Shown here: one piece after another, positions 3,826 to 62,720 of the stretch
Numbering within the stretch: position 1 is the stretch's first letter
Layout of the letters: every line of letters begins with the position of its first letter
Assembly (NCBI RefSeq): GCF_014851815.1
Contig: NZ_JACVAJ010000002.1
Span: 1-64,000, forward strand
Length of the DNA stretch: 64,000 nucleotides
Direction: 5' to 3'
DNA from: Pseudoxanthomonas sp. PXM01
GTDB taxonomy: Bacteria; Pseudomonadota; Gammaproteobacteria; Xanthomonadales; Xanthomonadaceae
Translations under genes and position numbers: made by a program
The notes under the pieces: model-generated
What the model was told of the DNA's origin: nothing
Databases searched by the model: none
The model's input: the letters and a program-made list of their open reading frames with translations, nothing else

Positions 3826-3879
3826 CAATCCATTCAAGCCGACGCCGCTTCGCGGCACGAATTGACTCAGGTGCCAGAC
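3820..3879 (+). repeat. attC site 10, degenerate R'
   Basis: R'' CCCTAAC at 3820-3826; the loop CGCCGCTTCGCGGCACG is kept, but the L'/R' half has drifted to GCCAGAC at 3873-3879. Probably a fossil site. Confidence 0.78.
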
Positions 3880-3882
3880 CTC

Positions 3883-4113
3883 ATGAAGCCATCCTCCTAC
3901 CAGCACAACGAGTTCTTCGCGCACCGTCCACTGCCTGGCGTGACCTTCAAGCACAACGATGCCGTTGATATCGTTGGTGGAGACTATGCGGGCAACTCCG
4001 GATCTATCGTCGGCTTGGATGAGTTGGGTGAGGATCCGTGTTACCTCGTCGAGCTTGGCTCAGGCCAAGACGTGTTCATCAGCCAATCGTGCCTTTGCTT
4101 GGCCGAGGCCTAA
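3883..4113 (+). CDS. KOW/SH3-like small protein of cassette 10
   Basis: ATG at 3883 (MKPSSYQHNEF) gives 76 residues; the longer frame from TTG 3862 would be attC sequence. The core (about residues 28-68) reads FKHNDAVDIVGGDYAGNSG and continues SIVGLDELGEDPCYLVELGSG. It resembles a KOW-type SH3-like barrel: a hydrophobic-G-x-Y/F-x-G-xx-G turn followed by two strands. Such domains occur in ribosome- and polymerase-associated proteins, but the match here is only to the fold pattern. The TAA at 4111-4113 is in the next R'' box. Cytosolic, no membrane span. Confidence 0.7.
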   Translation: MKPSSYQHNEFFAHRPLPGVTFKHNDAVDIVGGDYAGNSGSIVGLDELGEDPCYLVELGSGQDVFISQSCLCLAEA

Positions 4114-56319: not shown

Positions 56320-56405
56320 GCCGGAGTGGCGGAATGGTAGACGCAGCGGACTCAAAATCCGCCGCCCTTAAAAGCGTGTGGGTTCGAGTCCCACCTCCGG
56401 CACCA
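56320..56405 (+). tRNA. tRNA-Leu (anticodon CAA)
   Basis: An 86-nt class II tRNA: acceptor GCCGGAG pairs with CTCCGGC, anticodon stem GCGGA/TCCGC holds loop CTCAAAA with anticodon CAA (reads UUG), a long variable arm follows (CGCCCTTAAAAGCGTG), the T arm contains GGTTCGAGTCC, and the 3' CCA is encoded. It abuts the lower-GC defence module and is a plausible integration landmark. Confidence 0.96.
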
Positions 56406-56435: not shown

Positions 56436-56790
56436 CGTTTGTGGGGCTGCGCGTTTCATAGGGGATTGCAAAGGGGCTCTCAACGGGGCAGGTCCTGAAG
56501 ATCAATCCTCCCTTGGTCGCGAAGATGTCGGTCGAGTACATGCGCAGCAATCAGGAGACCATGTCGGATATCAGGCGCAGCTGACCGCGCAGCATGTCCA
56601 GCTGACTCCATGAGCGACTCGATGAATGGCCTGAGTACCAAAAGACGCGCCCGGGCTCCCGTTCTCGCATGATAACTACCGGACCGTGCGTTAGCCCCCC
56701 CGAATGTGCTAGATATTCGGACTTAGGGGAGCCTTCCGCTGGTTTGCGGACTGGCTTAGTGCTTTGAGCGAGCGCATTCGGAAGCGCAGC
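56436..56790. other. Gap between tRNA-Leu and the defence operon
   Basis: No complete gene. One plus frame is open at 56462-56584 without a good start (ending EYMRSNQETMSDIRRS) and may be a gene remnant. A small inverted repeat CCGAAT-N9-ATTCGG lies at 56700-56720 within a larger CCCC...GGGG arrangement about 70-90 bases before the nuclease start and could be an operator or promoter-proximal hairpin. No direct repeat of the tRNA 3' end was found. Confidence 0.5.
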
Positions 56791-57954
56791 ATGAACGGAA
56801 CACCCAGCACGGCGAACGAAGCCGAGATACTTCTATCAGTGGACGACACTTGTCCCGATGAAGCGGGTGGGCCTGTTGCCCGCTCCGGCTTCAATTATCA
56901 GGACGAAGTGGCTGTGGCCTTCCTGCTTCAAATGCTCGAAGACGCGTCACTTCTGAGAGTTCACTGCGAAACCCACGACGACCTAGTTCTTGTCTGGGAC
57001 GTGGGAGCCTATCGCACAGCAGAGTACGTTCAAGTGAAAGGCAGCGAACCAGGGAAGCTCTGGTCCGTAGCCGACCTCTGCAAAAAGGATTCTCCGAGCG
57101 GGTCAATTTACTCAAAGTCCCTTTCAAAGGATTGCCACAAGGAGCAGTCACTGTTTCGCATTGTGACGCTACAGGGAACAAACGAAGAGCTCAAGCACCT
57201 TACTTACGATCGAAATTCGCCCGGCCGTGCGTTGATCGCCGCCGAGCTAGAAGCACTCTCCGACGATATCGACACACGCAGTACGAAATACCGATCAAAG
57301 AAGAAAAACGGGGCGGCATTCTGGGTCGGGAATTGCGTATGGGACGTTCGCCACGACCAAGAGGACATCGCAGCAGATAACCTGAACAACCTGATCCGTA
57401 TCGCCCACTCGGAGAAGCGCCTTATCAGCTATGAGCAGGCAGCGGACATCCTCAACGACCTTCGCAAGATGGCAAAGGACGCTGGGAGCGCAAAGTACGT
57501 TCCCGACAAAGACAAGAAAATCATTTCTCGACTCAATCTCCGAGAGTGGTGGGGCAAGCGCATCACCTCCATCCTTGACGGGTCGCAGCCTGCAGGAGGG
57601 AAGTTGCGGGACAAACTCAAGGATGCGGGGGCGACCGACGACGTTATCCAGTCAGCAGTCGAACAGCGCCTTCGCTATGCGACCTTGAGCCGAGCATCGA
57701 AGTACATGAATGACGATGATGCTGCGGACCTACAGTCCTCAGTTCGCGCGGCCATGCTGACTGCCCGGCTTGAATACCTGTCGCAGGAGCCAGTCGTTGC
57801 TCCATTGGATTTCTTGGCATCGTGCCTAAAGGAAGCGAAGGAAATCGCTGAGGCCAGCCCTTGCGACATATCTGGCAGGAAGGAGTTTGCCTTCGGGTGC
57901 GTATTCGATATTGCAGACCGTTGCCTCCTCAGATTCACGAGGCCTTCGACATGA
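56791..57954 (+). CDS. DUF4297/Cap4-type nuclease, effector of an ABC-3C / Lamassu-like system
   Basis: ATG 56791 (MNGTPSTANEAEILLSVDD, 387 aa) is preferred over TTG 56764. The N-terminal domain reads SGFNYQDEVAVAFLLQMLED (about residues 32-51) then CETHDDLVLVWDVG and AEYVQVKGSE (about 58-84). This is the E...D...QxK layout of the PD-(D/E)xK nuclease fold as in DUF4297/Cap4. The rest is helical (about 100-380) and may be the regulatory or partner-binding part. In related defence systems the nuclease degrades DNA once released by the ATPase. It shares ATGA with the next gene, and base composition is lower in GC than the host genes. Confidence 0.83.
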   Translation: MNGTPSTANEAEILLSVDDTCPDEAGGPVARSGFNYQDEVAVAFLLQMLEDASLLRVHCETHDDLVLVWDVGAYRTAEYVQVKGSEPGKLWSVADLCKKDSPSGSIYSKSLSKDCHKEQSLFRIVTLQGTNEELKHLTYDRNSPGRALIAAELEALSDDIDTRSTKYRSKKKNGAAFWVGNCVWDVRHDQEDIAADNLNNLIRIAHSEKRLISYEQAADILNDLRKMAKDAGSAKYVPDKDKKIISRLNLREWWGKRITSILDGSQPAGGKLRDKLKDAGATDDVIQSAVEQRLRYATLSRASKYMNDDDAADLQSSVRAAMLTARLEYLSQEPVVAPLDFLASCLKEAKEIAEASPCDISGRKEFAFGCVFDIADRCLLRFTRPST

Positions 57955-58499
57955 TGTCGATCAACCGTGCTTCCGCCCGATCGTTTGGCCTACCACTTTC
58001 AGCAGATGACATTGTGGAGTTTCACGCCGCGCGCCTCCTGCTTCTAATTGAAATTTGCGGCACAGCAGGACGAATCGATGGTCTAACGAAGATGGCAAAG
58101 CTCGACTTTTTCGCCCGCTATCCTGACTTCTTTGACGCAGCCGCTGGAAAGACCGAAGGACGATCAAAGAAGGACGCTGTAGAGTCCGCGATGGTCCGGC
58201 ACCACTATGGTCCGTGGGATAAGCGCTACTACCACGTCCTATCCCACCTCGAAGCAAAGGGATTGATATCTGTCACTAAAGACAAGAACACCTTCAGGTT
58301 AGCGCTAACGCCTGAGGGAAAAGAGAAGGCGCGAAGGCTAAGAGAGTTGCCTAGCTTTCAGCAGCTGACTGATCGCATGAAGGAAATCAAGACGCAGTTC
58401 GGCTCCCGAACTGGAAGCTCACTTAAAGACATGATCTATCGTACGTTTGATACCGAAATCGGCAAACGCCGAATGGGGGAGTTCATCTCAAATGATTAA
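57951..58499 (+). CDS. Middle component (winged-helix) of the ABC-3C / Lamassu-like system
   Basis: ATG 57951 overlaps the nuclease stop by 4 bases and gives 182 residues. A winged-helix-like domain is visible at about residues 18-120: LLLLIEICGTAGRIDGLTKM, AKLDFFARYPDFF, YGPWDKRYYHVLSHLEAKGL and a beta wing ISVTKDKNTFRLALTPEGKE. A helical C-terminus follows (about 130-182). This matches middle components of ABC three-component systems (LmuC/DdmB type) that bridge effector and ATPase. It overlaps the ATPase gene by 8 bases. Confidence 0.8.
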   Translation: MMSINRASARSFGLPLSADDIVEFHAARLLLLIEICGTAGRIDGLTKMAKLDFFARYPDFFDAAAGKTEGRSKKDAVESAMVRHHYGPWDKRYYHVLSHLEAKGLISVTKDKNTFRLALTPEGKEKARRLRELPSFQQLTDRMKEIKTQFGSRTGSSLKDMIYRTFDTEIGKRRMGEFISND

Positions 58500-60399
58500 C
58501 AAGTACCTTTCGGTTATTGCCATTGAGCGCACGCTGGATGGCGGTGAGGTAGAGGTTTTGCCGCTAAAGCCGGGAGTGAATCTTCTAGTTGGCGCCCCGA
58601 ACACCGGTAAAACCAAGTGGCTCCAGATGCTGGACCATCTATTGGGCGATCAGGATTCATTCGATCAAGTCTTCCTTGAAGACCTTGTAAGAAAATATGA
58701 GAGCACTGCAGCGATCCTCCAAGTAGGAGACGACGAAATCCGTGTCGAGCGTCGCTGGAAGACTCCCGGCTCTAAGACGAAGGTCTACGTCGATGATGTA
58801 GAAATGAGCGCTAAGGATTTCCAGCACTACCTTATGGAGCTTCTGGAAATACCCCTCCTTCATTTTCCAAAAGGAAACCCAATGTCCGGCCAGACTTGGC
58901 CCGAATTGAGTTTTCGGATGCTCTTGCGGCACATGCACCATCAGCAGCGCTTTTGGAGCGGCTTGGTTGACCAGCAACCAGAGGGGGAGCAACTTGCCTG
59001 CCTGATGCAGTTCCTAGGTTTGGCGGAGAACGTTTACAACGACTCCTACGGCAAGTTAGTCCAGCTAAAGCTAGATTTGGAAAAGCTCAAGGCTCGGCGG
59101 GAGCAGTTCGGCCGAACTCTTCTACAGCTTTCAAAGGGTGCCGTATCGACTTCAGACGAGGCAACATCGCTGACCATCGAAGCTGTCGAGAGGGCTGAGC
59201 AAAGTTTGGAAGAACAACAGCAGGCACTATTGGCCAGACGTGCTCAAGCGATTACAGATGCCAGCAGCAAAGCGTTCGCCTTGGACAACCATAAGATTGT
59301 CACCCGGCTGACTGAAGCGCGCGCCGCTCTCGTTCGCCTGAGGACAGACCTTGCACTGAAGAGAGAGCTCAACGCGGGGCGCATCTCAGATATAGAACAG
59401 TATCGGAATGACTTGGTTACCGAACTGGAGCGCCTGGATAGGACGCTGGCTGCTGGCTCCGTACTGGCAGACCTAAAGATTACGCACTGTCCAGCTTGCG
59501 ACAGGGCTGTAGAGCCCGTCATTGGTGACGACGAATCCTGTCACTTGTGCCACCGGCTTCTACCAGATGAGCCACCAGAGGAAACCCAGGGAGTCCTTAG
59601 GATCGAGTTCGAGCAAACACGGTTAAAAGCGGAGGTCAAGGAGGCAGACCAGCTTCTTAATTCTCTGCATGCGGAGCAAAAAGAGATTATTTCAGAGTGG
59701 GACGCATCAACCGAGCAGATAGCAACGGCTGATACCAAACTCAAACCAGCACGCGAGGCGGTTGCGGGCTTGGTGAGTGAAGAGGTGAGTTCGATCGATG
59801 TCGCTATGGGGTCGCTTAACGAGAAGCAGAGTCAACTTTCCCGGGTCCGCGGTGCCGTCGAGTTGTCACAGCAGTTGTCGCAAGAGATCGCGGAGAAGGA
59901 GAACGATCTCGCCCCTCTTCAAAGCTCGGTAGATCAGTTAGCGGCAAAGGCCGACTTTGACCTTGCCGAAGAGCGCTTGGAGTCTGGCCTCGGAGAATAC
60001 TTGCGGAGGATTTCTGAGCTAAAGCCGGAATCGTGGCGGCATAGTCTGCCAAGAGTAAGTCTGACGCGCTCCAGTTTCAGCATTAAAATTGGACAGAAGA
60101 AGTGGAGCGCGGCGCTGGGAGCGACAGACACCCTCTTCCTCATTATGAGCTACCACTATGGACTTCTTACGCTAAGCCCCTACTCCGACTGCCACTATCC
60201 CGGGTTCGCCATCATCGATCTGCCTGGAGACTTTCTCGGCGATGACATCGAGGACAAGGAGAATTTCATCGTCCAACCCTTCATCGAACTGCTTAGAACC
60301 GAAGAGTTCCAAGGCGCCCAGGTGATCTTCACTGGAGCCTCCTTCAAGGGTCTGGAAGGAGCGCATCGCATTCAACTTGAAACCCCCTACGTGGAGTGA
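58492..60399 (+). CDS. SMC/Rad50-like ATPase of the ABC-3C / Lamassu-like system
   Basis: The 635-residue protein starts MINKYLSVIAIERTLDGGEV. Walker A is GAPNTGKTKW at about residues 34-43. Two coiled-coil arms (about 190-320 and 365-500) flank a cysteine module CPACDRAVEP...CHLCHR (about 329-355) at the expected hinge position, a zinc hook or knuckle. The C-terminal ATPase half carries SAALGATDTLFLIMSY in place of the ABC signature and FAIIDLPGDFL at Walker B, where the usual catalytic Glu is Leu. Such ATPases sense foreign DNA and gate the nuclease. Confidence 0.84.
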   Translation: MINKYLSVIAIERTLDGGEVEVLPLKPGVNLLVGAPNTGKTKWLQMLDHLLGDQDSFDQVFLEDLVRKYESTAAILQVGDDEIRVERRWKTPGSKTKVYVDDVEMSAKDFQHYLMELLEIPLLHFPKGNPMSGQTWPELSFRMLLRHMHHQQRFWSGLVDQQPEGEQLACLMQFLGLAENVYNDSYGKLVQLKLDLEKLKARREQFGRTLLQLSKGAVSTSDEATSLTIEAVERAEQSLEEQQQALLARRAQAITDASSKAFALDNHKIVTRLTEARAALVRLRTDLALKRELNAGRISDIEQYRNDLVTELERLDRTLAAGSVLADLKITHCPACDRAVEPVIGDDESCHLCHRLLPDEPPEETQGVLRIEFEQTRLKAEVKEADQLLNSLHAEQKEIISEWDASTEQIATADTKLKPAREAVAGLVSEEVSSIDVAMGSLNEKQSQLSRVRGAVELSQQLSQEIAEKENDLAPLQSSVDQLAAKADFDLAEERLESGLGEYLRRISELKPESWRHSLPRVSLTRSSFSIKIGQKKWSAALGATDTLFLIMSYHYGLLTLSPYSDCHYPGFAIIDLPGDFLGDDIEDKENFIVQPFIELLRTEEFQGAQVIFTGASFKGLEGAHRIQLETPYVE

Positions 60400-60583
60400 G
60401 CAACACCAGCGGCTCAGTCTACTTGTGCCGCTTGGAGACGCACCTGATCGTCACTGCGTTCTCAACAGTGCGGACGAATTCATCCACTTCAGTTTCGTAG
60501 GTGACCTAGGCCATCGCCGCCATGACTACCTTATCGGATGTATAGAATAGGGTGTCGCGCGCAAGCCGATGACGACACAAAAA
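60400..60583. other. Gap after the defence operon
   Basis: No gene. On the minus strand one frame is open over 60505-60419 (reading VTYETEVDEFVRTVENAVTI), with stops just upstream, and looks like the 3' remnant of a lost gene. No copy of the tRNA-Leu 3' end is present here. Confidence 0.45.
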
Positions 60584-60604
60584 ATGGGGCCTGTCGGCCC
60601 CATC
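60584..60604 (-). terminator. Terminator of the hypothetical gene at 60642
   Basis: On the minus strand ATGGGGCC, loop GACA, GGCCCCAT is followed by TTTTT. It lies about 38 bases after the stop of the minus-strand gene. Confidence 0.88.
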
Positions 60605-60641
60605 CATTTACAACGTTTCACTTCATGCGCAGGCGCCCCAC

Positions 60642-61139
60642 TCAATCCTGCCCCGCCGTCGCCTCCTTGTCGTCCGGCTCATCGCTCTCCTCCTTCGACC
60701 GCTTGCTCTTGAACCGCGCCGCCAGTTGCTTGCGCAACCCATCCAGTCCCGCGCTCTTGCCGGCCACCTTCAGGAACTGATAGCCCTCCACCGAGTTCGA
60801 CATCATGTCGCTGCCCAGGGCCATCTCCGTGTCCAGCATCCGCTGGTACAAACGCATCACCTGCACCGTCCGCATCCGCAGCGCGTCCAGCGCCGCCACG
60901 TCCCGCTGCAGCGCCGCCAGGTCGAAGTTCGCCGGCAGGATCTGCGGATTGGCCGTCAACACATCGACCGCCAACCGGCAGAACGCCTCCGACTTGTCGC
61001 CCATCTTGTGCAACCTGCGCCGCTTCACCGGATCCAGTGCCACCAGCCCGGAGAACCGCCCGTCCAGTGTCGCTAACGCCCCATCGATATCCGTCAATGC
61101 CGCCTCATCGAAGATGATGTCCACGATGTTCTGACTCAT
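60642..61139 (-). CDS. Hypothetical helical protein
   Basis: ATG 61139 (MSQNIVDIIFDEAALTDIDG) is preceded by AAGGAGG at ideal spacing. The 165-residue product is almost wholly helical: LTDIDGALATLDGRFSGLVA, RRRLHKMGDKSEAFCRLAVD, DLAALQRDVAALDALRMRTV and QVMRLYQRMLDTEMALG. A charged, disordered C-terminal tail rich in Lys/Glu/Asp ends the chain (about 140-165). No signal or membrane span. No family recognised. It has its own terminator. Its 5' side faces the 22-bp repeat array, so the array lies upstream of it. Confidence 0.82.
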   Translation of the reverse strand: MSQNIVDIIFDEAALTDIDGALATLDGRFSGLVALDPVKRRRLHKMGDKSEAFCRLAVDVLTANPQILPANFDLAALQRDVAALDALRMRTVQVMRLYQRMLDTEMALGSDMMSNSVEGYQFLKVAGKSAGLDGLRKQLAARFKSKRSKEESDEPDDKEATAGQD

Positions 61140-61274
61140 GCTGCCTCCTTGGTTCCTTGTCAGTGGGATGCCCACCCTCCGGCAGGCACCGCCACTCTAG
61201 GACGCGGCACACGGCAAAACCTCTAACATTTCATTCGCACACAGCGCGCACCCCATCACGCCGAACCGCGTTCG

Positions 61275-61648
61275 ATACACCGCATCATCCCGCGACATGA
61301 GCGCGGTCGTGGACCGCCATACCAACCGGCATCAACGTCGATACCAGTTGGCATCGTTCGCCATATCACGGGAACCCGTGCGCCATACGCCAGATACTGT
61401 CTCGTGATGCGCACGGACATCCCGCGCCATAGGCATGCAAGTGACCGTCGATACGCCGACCCATGCGCGTTGATACCGACCGGTATCGATCCGCATATCG
61501 ACGCGTATCCCCCGCCATATGTCGACGTATGTCGCACGACCCGACGCGATATGTCGCGCCACCTGCCGTGGTATCGACCGCCATGCCGCCGACCATCATC
61601 GGTCATGTCCATCGCGGTACCCCGCGACAGGACGCCAGGTCGAACACG
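61275..61648. repeat. Degenerate tandem array with exact 22-bp period
   Basis: Seventeen consecutive 22-bp units, counting a weak last one, are counted without a single indel: unit starts at 61275, 61297, 61319 and every 22 bp to 61627. Position 1 is A in every unit, position 2 is T in 14 of the first 16, T holds position 14 in 15 of 16, and most units end CGCC, GTCG or similar. Most units contain a dyad close to ATACC-N4-GGTAT (best at 61473, 61341 and 61319), giving AT steps alternately 12 and 10 bp apart. Twenty-two is not a multiple of three and all frames are poor, so the array is non-coding. It lies between the genes at 60642 and 61911. Confidence 0.85.
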
Positions 61649-61910
61649 CAACCGCGCGACAGACCACAGTGATCCTGCCAGCCCCAGGACCATGGCCACG
61701 GGGTTGTCACGACACGACGCTTCAGTCCCTCCACGCTGCCCTGCGCCACACGCCACCGGGAGCGTGGCGCAGGGGAAGGCGTCAGGCGGGCAGGAACAGC
61801 ATCCTGGTCTTGAAGGAAACGTCGTGAAAGGTGCGCGCGCCGTGCGCGGCTACCTTCGAGTGCCATGCGGTCGTAGCGGCATGCGCACGCCCAGGCGGGC
61901 GTTGCGCTGT

Positions 61911-62720
61911 TTACCGGCGGGCGGACCGTGCGCGCTTTCCACCGCCGCCTTTCGCAGCGGCACGGCTCTGTTCGAATTCCGGGAAGGTCTCCGCCATCGA
62001 ATCCTTCTCCGGCAGGATGTAGAAAACCCCGCCCTTTTCCAACGTCGGACGGACGATCTGCTCGTAGAACCCGGGCGCCACATTGATGCAGCCGTGGGTC
62101 ACGCGGTTGTCGTCCGGTGAAGCCGATGCGAGGCGCTCGGCGCGCCGTTCGCCCGGGACCGTCGCGGTGGGATGCATGGAGACGGCGGAATCGTAGTCCA
62201 CCCACAGCACGCGTCCGGCGTCGATCGACGGACCGTAACCGCCCACATAGCGACCCGCGGGCGTGGTGCGATCCCGGCCCGGGATCTCGCGAAGCGCGAG
62301 TCCGGCGATGCCGGGTGCGGTGTGATCGCCGACCGCCGAACCGAAGAGCCCGGGCGCTGCGCCGCGAAGCCGGCCGTCGCCACCGAACACCAGGATCTGT
62401 GCAGCGGTCTTGTCCATGATCACGAACGGATAACCCTGGTTGTCCTTGCTGGCGACAACCCAGCCCGCGAGCGCGATCACCGTGTCGGACACGTCCTGGC
62501 CTTGCGGAAGCTGGTCGGCGCCGGTGTCCACGTGTGCAGTGGCTTTCTCGGCATCGGTTTTCTCGGCGGCAACCTTCCCGCTCGTGGCTTTCTCGGCGCT
62601 GGCCGCACTGAAGCTGGTGAACGCAAGCGCGAGTACCAGCGCGCCACCAAAGGTCCGGATCGCAGGGTGCGTATACGTGCGGATGGGACAGCTCCTCGGA
62701 ACGGGGATCGGATCAAACAA
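61911..62720 (-). CDS. L,D-transpeptidase (YkuD family), exported
   Basis: The exported protein has a signal-like helix (FGGALVLALAFTSFSAASA) and a Lys/Glu/Ala linker. A YkuD catalytic domain follows (about residues 90-250 of this form) with the conserved His and active-site Cys in SMHPT...VTHGCINVAPGFYEQ. L,D-transpeptidases make 3-3 crosslinks in peptidoglycan or attach Lpp-type lipoproteins to it. The start is unclear: TTG 62720 is the nearest conventional codon, but it sits at the edge of a terminator hairpin. A good GAGGAGC ribosome site (62697-62691) instead precedes an ATC at 62684. It is downstream of the Lpp-like gene. Confidence 0.85.
   Translation of the reverse strand: MFDPIPVPRSCPIRTYTHPAIRTFGGALVLALAFTSFSAASAEKATSGKVAAEKTDAEKATAHVDTGADQLPQGQDVSDTVIALAGWVVASKDNQGYPFVIMDKTAAQILVFGGDGRLRGAAPGLFGSAVGDHTAPGIAGLALREIPGRDRTTPAGRYVGGYGPSIDAGRVLWVDYDSAVSMHPTATVPGERRAERLASASPDDNRVTHGCINVAPGFYEQIVRPTLEKGGVFYILPEKDSMAETFPEFEQSRAAAKGGGGKRARSARR

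Follow-up and report, generated by a model that had tools for sequence, protein, structure and literature searches.

What keeps a tandem array in step when its units are only about half identical, and what could such an array do? This question is raised by a gap between genes in the 64,000-nucleotide stretch of DNA from Pseudoxanthomonas sp. PXM01 that was analysed here (the window). A sequence-only reading of the window had picked out the following element.

61275..61648, no strand assigned: degenerate array of 16-17 units of 22 bp with dyads of the ATACC-N4-GGTAT type (lag-22 identity, column counts, homologous arrays)

The basic description holds. Positions 61275-61626 divide into 16 units of 22 bp, with A at position 1 in all 16, T at position 2 in 14 and T at position 14 in 15, and the units are indeed about half identical (mean pairwise identity of 0.447); a 17th unit, ending at 61648, fits more poorly than the first 16. 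The autocorrelation peak predicted at 22 bp is present: base identity at lag 22 across 61275-61648 is 0.477 (z 8.5 against 2,000 dinucleotide shuffles), and the highest value at any lag from 2 to 79 in any of these shuffles was 0.381. Lags 44 and 66 are likewise raised, and when the whole window was scanned in 352-base pieces, the five top lag-22 starts all fell within 61210-61245. The further peak predicted at 11 bp was found for A/T content only (z 4.1) and not for base identity (0.245, z -1.0). Tandem Repeats Finder, which had also been expected to detect the array, did not report it even at a score of 30, because its units are only about half identical. Rfam gave no match in window positions 60400-62000, and phage records contained no match to the window's array.

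A DNA search with the array region yielded matches in 7 of 61 genomes, the PXM01 genome included. Matches in three congeners (G021, G027 and G029) cover 309-344 of 411 bases, and shorter ones of about 45-65 bases were found in G020, G035 and G040; the match in G020 is a 22-bp array without the gene described below. The sequence-only reading had named the loss of any conserved period in close relatives as evidence against it; instead, the three congeners have a 22-bp array in the same place, also upstream of the same gene. This gene and its immediate surroundings are as follows.

60642..61139, minus strand: partner gene for a 165-residue protein, predicted to be all-helical, of an unnamed family (MSQN..., KMGDKSEAF motif; adjacent-array family, AlphaFold2)
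61140..61274, minus strand: spacer between array and partner gene, presumed promoter and leader (ortholog divergence)
60582..60605, minus strand: terminator-like hairpin directly 3' of the partner gene (pattern scan)

The array thus lies upstream of the minus-strand partner gene at 60642-61139. In all nine upstream-array ortholog pairs, divergence is lower in the 105 bases preceding the gene than in the array, and a scan of the 61140-61274 spacer found no sigma-70-like site. The hairpin is the single hit of a terminator pattern scan of 60400-61950, against 0.7 expected from shuffles.

Is the pairing of array and gene a peculiarity of this locus? The partner gene was found in 21 of 38 Pseudoxanthomonas genomes, with up to five matches in each, some of them fragments, and it is rare outside the genus (3 of 274 genomes in a class sample and 2 of 398 in a phylum sample, own genome included). 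A scan of named genomes, from which the best 80 of 200 confirmed loci were kept, returned members from Pseudoxanthomonas, Lysobacter, Luteimonas, Rhodanobacter, Ralstonia, Aquabacterium, Zoogloea, and others. An array with a period of 21, 22 or 42 bp was detected within 700 bp of the gene at 66 of these 80 loci at z of at least 4 and at 69 at z of at least 3; the 80 loci include close relatives and are not 80 independent cases. The 14 loci without an array at the stricter threshold include two at a contig end. An identity of 0.55 at the array lags was reached in 46 of 154 near flanks, compared with 2 of 297 flanks 1.4-2.9 kb away, and 11 other lags reached this value in none. The PXM01 genome itself has two further copies of the family, one with an upstream 42/21-bp array (0.57) and the other (copy 2) with no clear array.

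Several individual loci depart from the common layout. At L095 (3001-3165), the partner gene is broken after about 55 codons, and the 42-bp array is still highly regular (0.86 at lag 42). Probable remnants were seen at L028 (genome G014), where a piece of the gene lies some 2 kb from the tRNA-Leu region, and at L027 and L004 (genome G020), as a gene fragment and a separate array with no gene. L026 has a separate GC-rich 27-bp tandem repeat (lag-27 identity of 0.94) about 550 bp 3' of the gene, past its 42-bp array. In an Accumulibacter copy, what look by eye like CRISPR-like repeats (L100, about 3830-4010) directly follow the downstream array. In two Pseudoxanthomonas genomes (L054 and L097, 3479-4872), two reading frames, with the same lengths in both genomes, begin 14 bp after the partner gene; those of L054 matched no PDB sequence.

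An array can also stand alone. A second array in the PXM01 genome, at about C4:850040-850380 (L145 7040-7380), consists of 22-bp units with the window's motif, and no significant match to the protein family was found in the surrounding 14.5 kb. What appears by eye to be a TonB-receptor gene begins downstream of it. The other 37 genomes of the genus sample have no counterpart, only a 30-base match to the array of G029. This orphan array may be a remnant or a putative second binding site.

The history of the pairing can be read from a protein tree of 60 rows, which left out loci with no detected array, one locus with arrays on both sides and one broken gene; the orientation table also omits L012, L027 and L028, which failed the motif filter. 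The array is upstream of the gene in 38 rows and downstream in 22, and its side changes only once on the tree (support 96/91), compared with a mean of 18 changes in shuffled assignments, none of which (0 of 500) was as low. Therefore, the array and the gene are inherited together, and we conclude that they are two parts of one inherited unit.

What is conserved in the array is mainly its spacing. A fit to the 28 strongest arrays, out of 63, puts the period at 21.1 +- 0.2 bp, or two turns of B-DNA, and A/T power peaks at 21 bp, with harmonics at 10.5 (the next in power), 7 and 5.25 bp. Purine/pyrimidine power peaks at 7.0 bp and exceeds 8 in 43 of the 63 arrays, where the control of one shuffle per array had a maximum of 8.9 and a median of 3.2. 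This 7-bp purine signal is absent from the 22-bp arrays of the window and P. japonensis, which show an A/T period of 11; the array of L038 likewise lacks the 7.0-bp purine period. As to the phased bend that the sequence-only reading had offered as an alternative, A-tracts by eye recur every 21 bp in the arrays of some relatives, and other arrays are GC-rich. Detected arrays extend to about 190-630 bp. Imperfect dyads are also common, with a complementarity of at least 0.42 at the best phase in 43 of 63 arrays and array-wide means of 0.18-0.31, scores that are inflated because each is the best of many phases with no shuffle control.

The letters, on the other hand, turn over quickly. Of 10 ortholog pairs, 7 diverge more in the array than at third codon positions and 3 diverge less; for the window's ortholog pair, the values are 0.26 and 0.15. 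Individual positions of the unit are only weakly conserved, with an uncorrected p<0.05 in 3 of 14 pairs. The mean motif correlation falls from 0.66 among 17 close ortholog pairs to 0.31 among 12 paralog pairs from the same genome, against a background of about 0.21, the exceptions being two of the 12 paralog pairs with similar motifs (0.70 and 0.59). Indels are few: 6 of 14 ortholog pairs have none, and the others have indels of 1-2 bp or of 10, 21, 44 or 195 bp. The claim that spacing is constrained is thus strongly supported, with the period kept across distant copies while the letters turn over.

A neutral satellite, grown by slippage and palindrome-templated copying and devoid of function, would also show fast letter turnover, and it could account for the orphan array with no gene and for the 4 of 14 ortholog pairs whose arrays differ in length by 21, 44 or 195 bp. 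However, a satellite would have no reason to be tied to one gene family across several genera with a single change of side on the tree, its period would not be expected to stay near 21.1 bp while its letters do not, and it should contain more than a few indels. We regard a functionless array as very improbable.

Could the array be a coding repeat or act as RNA? A codon-position pattern of substitutions is absent in all 10 ortholog pairs (p 0.12-0.96), and a period of 22 does not fit codons; a coding repeat was rejected on these grounds. Fully open frames are commoner in arrays than in shuffles (1.49 versus 0.39), and a stop-free repeated unit yields such an excess without coding. More is to be said for a transcribed array acting as RNA, a chain of hairpins of about 21 nt held by the helical protein, as in a type III toxin-antitoxin system or a guide array. 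A gene with an adjacent repeat array in a defence neighborhood resembles ToxIN, the array letters evolve fast, and folding energy beats that of column shuffles (z<0 in 52 of 63 arrays and below -2 in 26). Yet 32 arrays have the lower minimum free energy on the sense strand and 31 on the antisense strand, so that neither is favored; array stems show no preference for G:U over A:C; and orthologs show no clear compensatory excess (8.9% of changed pairs versus 7.1% in control pairs). The negative Rfam result for the window counts the same way, and RNA hairpins have no need of an exact two-turn spacing. With the strand, wobble and compensation tests, all of them indirect, negative, we consider an RNA role of any such kind unlikely. 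Since there is no strand, wobble, compensation or codon signal, the array looks like a DNA element. A terminator between the gene and a downstream array was dropped as proof of separate transcripts, because terminator-like sites occur in 9 of 22 downstream-array loci and in 23 of 38 upstream-array loci alike.

If the array is a DNA element, the adjacent gene is a candidate source of its binding protein, and a platform for a dimeric DNA-binding protein, as proposed by the sequence-only reading, fits what the sequences show. The window's partner protein matched nothing above Pfam or NCBIfam cut-offs and none of the PADLOC families, and its matches to PHROGs were weak (best E 0.042). Among 68 members of the family, 7 PADLOC families were matched, each by at most two members (best E 4e-5), and we judged these matches spurious. 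The AlphaFold2 model (mean pLDDT of 86.8) is mostly confident and all-helical, with one helix of 52 residues and a tail (residues 151-165) with pLDDT under 50. Fold searches against the PDB and viral models gave no match at E<=0.001, and a second structure comparison reached only Z<=5.5, values that common helical arrangements also give. Neither sequence nor fold searches found a DNA-binding domain, and the family is mildly acidic (median pI of 5.7 and net charge of -1 for 79 members). A ribbon-helix-helix fold received no support from profile searches of PDB sequences and stays a mere possibility: residues 4-57 resemble it by eye only, and the single-chain model is all-helical, the ribbon being one that would form only in a dimer. 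Structure searches with the all-helical model list no ToxN, from which exclusion of the ToxN fold does not follow.

The surroundings of the unit suggest where it might act. The window holds the following genes on one side of it.

56320..56405, plus strand: tRNA-Leu(CAA) gene, the conserved boundary of the variable region in which the unit lies (ARAGORN, Rfam)
56764..57954, plus strand: Cap4-type nuclease, LmuA-like, with the best PADLOC score to the HamA model (Pfam E 7e-20, PADLOC)
57861..58499, plus strand: LmuC-like defence gene (PADLOC E 3.6e-13)
58447..60399, plus strand: LmuB-like ATPase defence gene (PADLOC E 6.5e-32)

Together, positions 56764-60399 form a Lamassu-like module between the tRNA-Leu gene and the gene-array unit. 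The tRNA-Leu region was matched in all 38 genomes of the genus, in some only over the tRNA segment of about 105 bp. Four species have different genes between the tRNA-Leu gene and the conserved unit, three sets of them clearly defence genes: beside the window's module, the slot contains an AbiJ-like gene in G021, a type VI retron reverse transcriptase with an HTH partner in G027 and, in G029, a gene just above the SieB cut-off. Homology among these loci stops at about 60573-60653 and about 61614-61634. The window's flank on the other side has no homology in three 20-kb stretches from G021, G027 and G029, and in G021 it reappears about 10.6 kb past the array, still on the same contig.

Defence genes also stand near the unit elsewhere. 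Eight of 20 large neighbor proteins match PADLOC models at E<=1e-15 (REase_II, DpdB, PifA, REase_I, PDC-S73, MTase_III, MTase_I and SoFic), compared with none of 10 control proteins located 2.4-20 kb from the gene. The control set was drawn from the window and the 20-kb surroundings of four Pseudoxanthomonas copies; because both sets were hand-picked by size and the controls represent one genus, the enrichment is suggestive only. Such neighbors suggest that the unit may hold or control acquired DNA, or may itself take part in immunity.

General integration at tRNA genes was rejected, as only L038 (tRNA-Leu) and L079 (tRNA-Ala) of the 80 named loci have a tRNA gene in the stretch examined, up to 3 kb on each side. 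A phage element was rejected, with no relatives of the partner gene in phage records or viral contigs, as was a plasmid element, with no plasmid matches to the window and Ralstonia proteins as queries. The Aquabacterium protein as a query returned one distant homolog (34.5% identity) on a Thiodictyon plasmid (L148 4001-4468), located between metabolic genes and with no clear array: its lag-21 value of 0.50 falls inside a pyruvate kinase gene. The array-linked clade may have arisen from a wider family to which this homolog belongs.

Several copies in Ralstonia share a block of about 1.65 kb that includes a C4 antisense RNA and a small reading frame. L055, L077, L053 and L095 adjoin C4 antisense RNA genes and the small reading frame, with three such genes in L055. 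L053 and L063 have a further gene, HNH-like by eye, between the halves of the block. The C4 antisense RNA is a neighbor separate from the array.

Might the array instead be a landing site that draws insertion or recombination, which would explain the variable defence cargo alongside? The different genes at the tRNA-Leu site of four species, the homology limits at about 60573-60653 and 61614-61634, and the split Ralstonia block of L053 and L063 all agree with this idea. However, the hotspot in the window is already explained by its tRNA gene, and only two of the 80 named loci have a tRNA gene within the up to 3 kb examined on each side. Moreover, the conserved unit includes no recombinase, and the arrays of 14 ortholog pairs contain no gene-sized insertion. 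We see only a slim chance that the array is a landing site.

How, then, would the unit work? We give about even chances to a phased nucleoprotein complex that the partner protein would form on its own array, every two helical turns, and that would act on the DNA around it. This protein, probably dimeric or oligomeric, would bind its own array with one complex per two helical turns, all on one face of the DNA, and a phased complex would build up as ParR does on parC or a repressor on an operator array. Less certainly, this complex would act on the surrounding DNA and not only on its own promoter, because the array lies before or after the gene and the units are often found among defence genes; such action might consist in holding, silencing or stabilising a horizontally acquired segment. 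A general nucleoid protein, the other binder put forward by the sequence-only reading, is less probable, as the copies within a genome usually differ in array motif. The acidic protein, the lack of any DNA-binding domain found and the occasional 1-2-bp indels count against the binding proposal, and the array outdiverging third codon positions and the weak conservation within units count against strict sequence-specific sites. Given the acidic charge and the fast turnover of letters, strict sequence recognition is disfavored, and the protein would more plausibly recognise shape and spacing, with weak half-sites.

The binding step is shared with a narrower alternative, an operator array on which the protein or another regulator acts solely to control the partner gene or neighboring defence genes. 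Tandem dyads on one face suit cooperative repression, the neighbors are often defence genes, and 38 of 60 tree rows have the array on the upstream side. On the other side stand the 22 rows of the other clade, in which the array is downstream, and array lengths of about 190-630 bp, which are long for an operator; furthermore, the next gene is on the same strand in only 37 of 78 loci (simple ORF calling), and therefore there is no fixed target. A purely regulatory array is, in our estimate, a minority possibility that still deserves some weight. Returning to the phased complex, we tentatively place the unit, at somewhat under even chances, in an undescribed class: a helical protein with a private, fast-diversifying array conserved mainly in spacing, the complex of which would organise or silence DNA or form part of anti-phage immunity. 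As we picture this class, it would have two-turn spacing, mostly with a 7-bp purine/pyrimidine sub-period, and one or several usually distinct copies per genome, concentrated in defence islands.

The inheritance of a protein family with a non-coding DNA element that is conserved in spacing more than in letters is an unusual coupling. It opens a direct test of whether single proteins in bacteria dock on private, helically phased arrays, nominates for functional study an unnamed gene family that is often multi-copy and often near anti-phage systems, and shows a way to find elements of this kind that a standard repeat finder misses.

The titles and abstract openings of the literature searched contained no description of the gene family or of the gene-array pair. 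Several known systems resemble it in part. As far as the available parts of the sources go, the type III toxin-antitoxin systems ToxIN, CptIN and TenpIN share a small gene, an adjoining tandem-repeat array and links to phage defence. The antitoxins of known type III systems have RNA repeats of greater length, about 34 nt or more, whereas the arrays described here have 21-22-bp units, no stranded RNA signal and no Rfam match, and are also found downstream of the gene. CRISPR arrays share a fixed unit length, variable letters and a place beside a gene in defence surroundings; however, the present array has no invariant repeat, no alternation of spacer and repeat (unit identity of 0.447) and no match in phage records, and no Cas gene was found among the six window proteins scanned. 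The heptad arrays bound by the Omega repressor of the delta-omega partition system consist of contiguous 7-bp units, which recalls the purine/pyrimidine period of 7.0 bp in 43 of 63 arrays; in this comparison, which concerns the arrays alone, the differences are that the window's 22-bp array has no 7-bp signal and that the base period is 21, not 7.

The closest likeness of working is to ParR-parC, in which, according to the available part of the source, a small protein likewise adjoins an array of short direct repeats of its own. According to that part, parC repeats are of 10, 11, 17 or 20 bp and the DNA wraps into a solenoid; a species may have several ParR/parC families, and ParR was reported not to bind the noncognate parC of another family (PMC9426499). 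A unit spacing of about one or two helical turns is seen here as well: it is 22 bp in the window, and the 28 strongest arrays, out of 63, give 21.1 +- 0.2 bp. In contrast to ParR-parC, the unit has no actin-like ATPase alongside and no recognisable ribbon-helix-helix domain, is chromosomal (apart from one distant plasmid homolog), and has an array that reaches about 630 bp and may lie on either side of the gene. A ParM-like ATPase was found neither in six window proteins nor among the matches listed for 97 neighbor proteins (25 of 73 Pfam families); a single neighbor of the 97 has a match to a ParA-like PHROG. Membership in ParR-parC is therefore not supported, and the likeness would be one of working only. 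The gene-array pair fits no family tested here, while its way of working may prove to be of a known kind.
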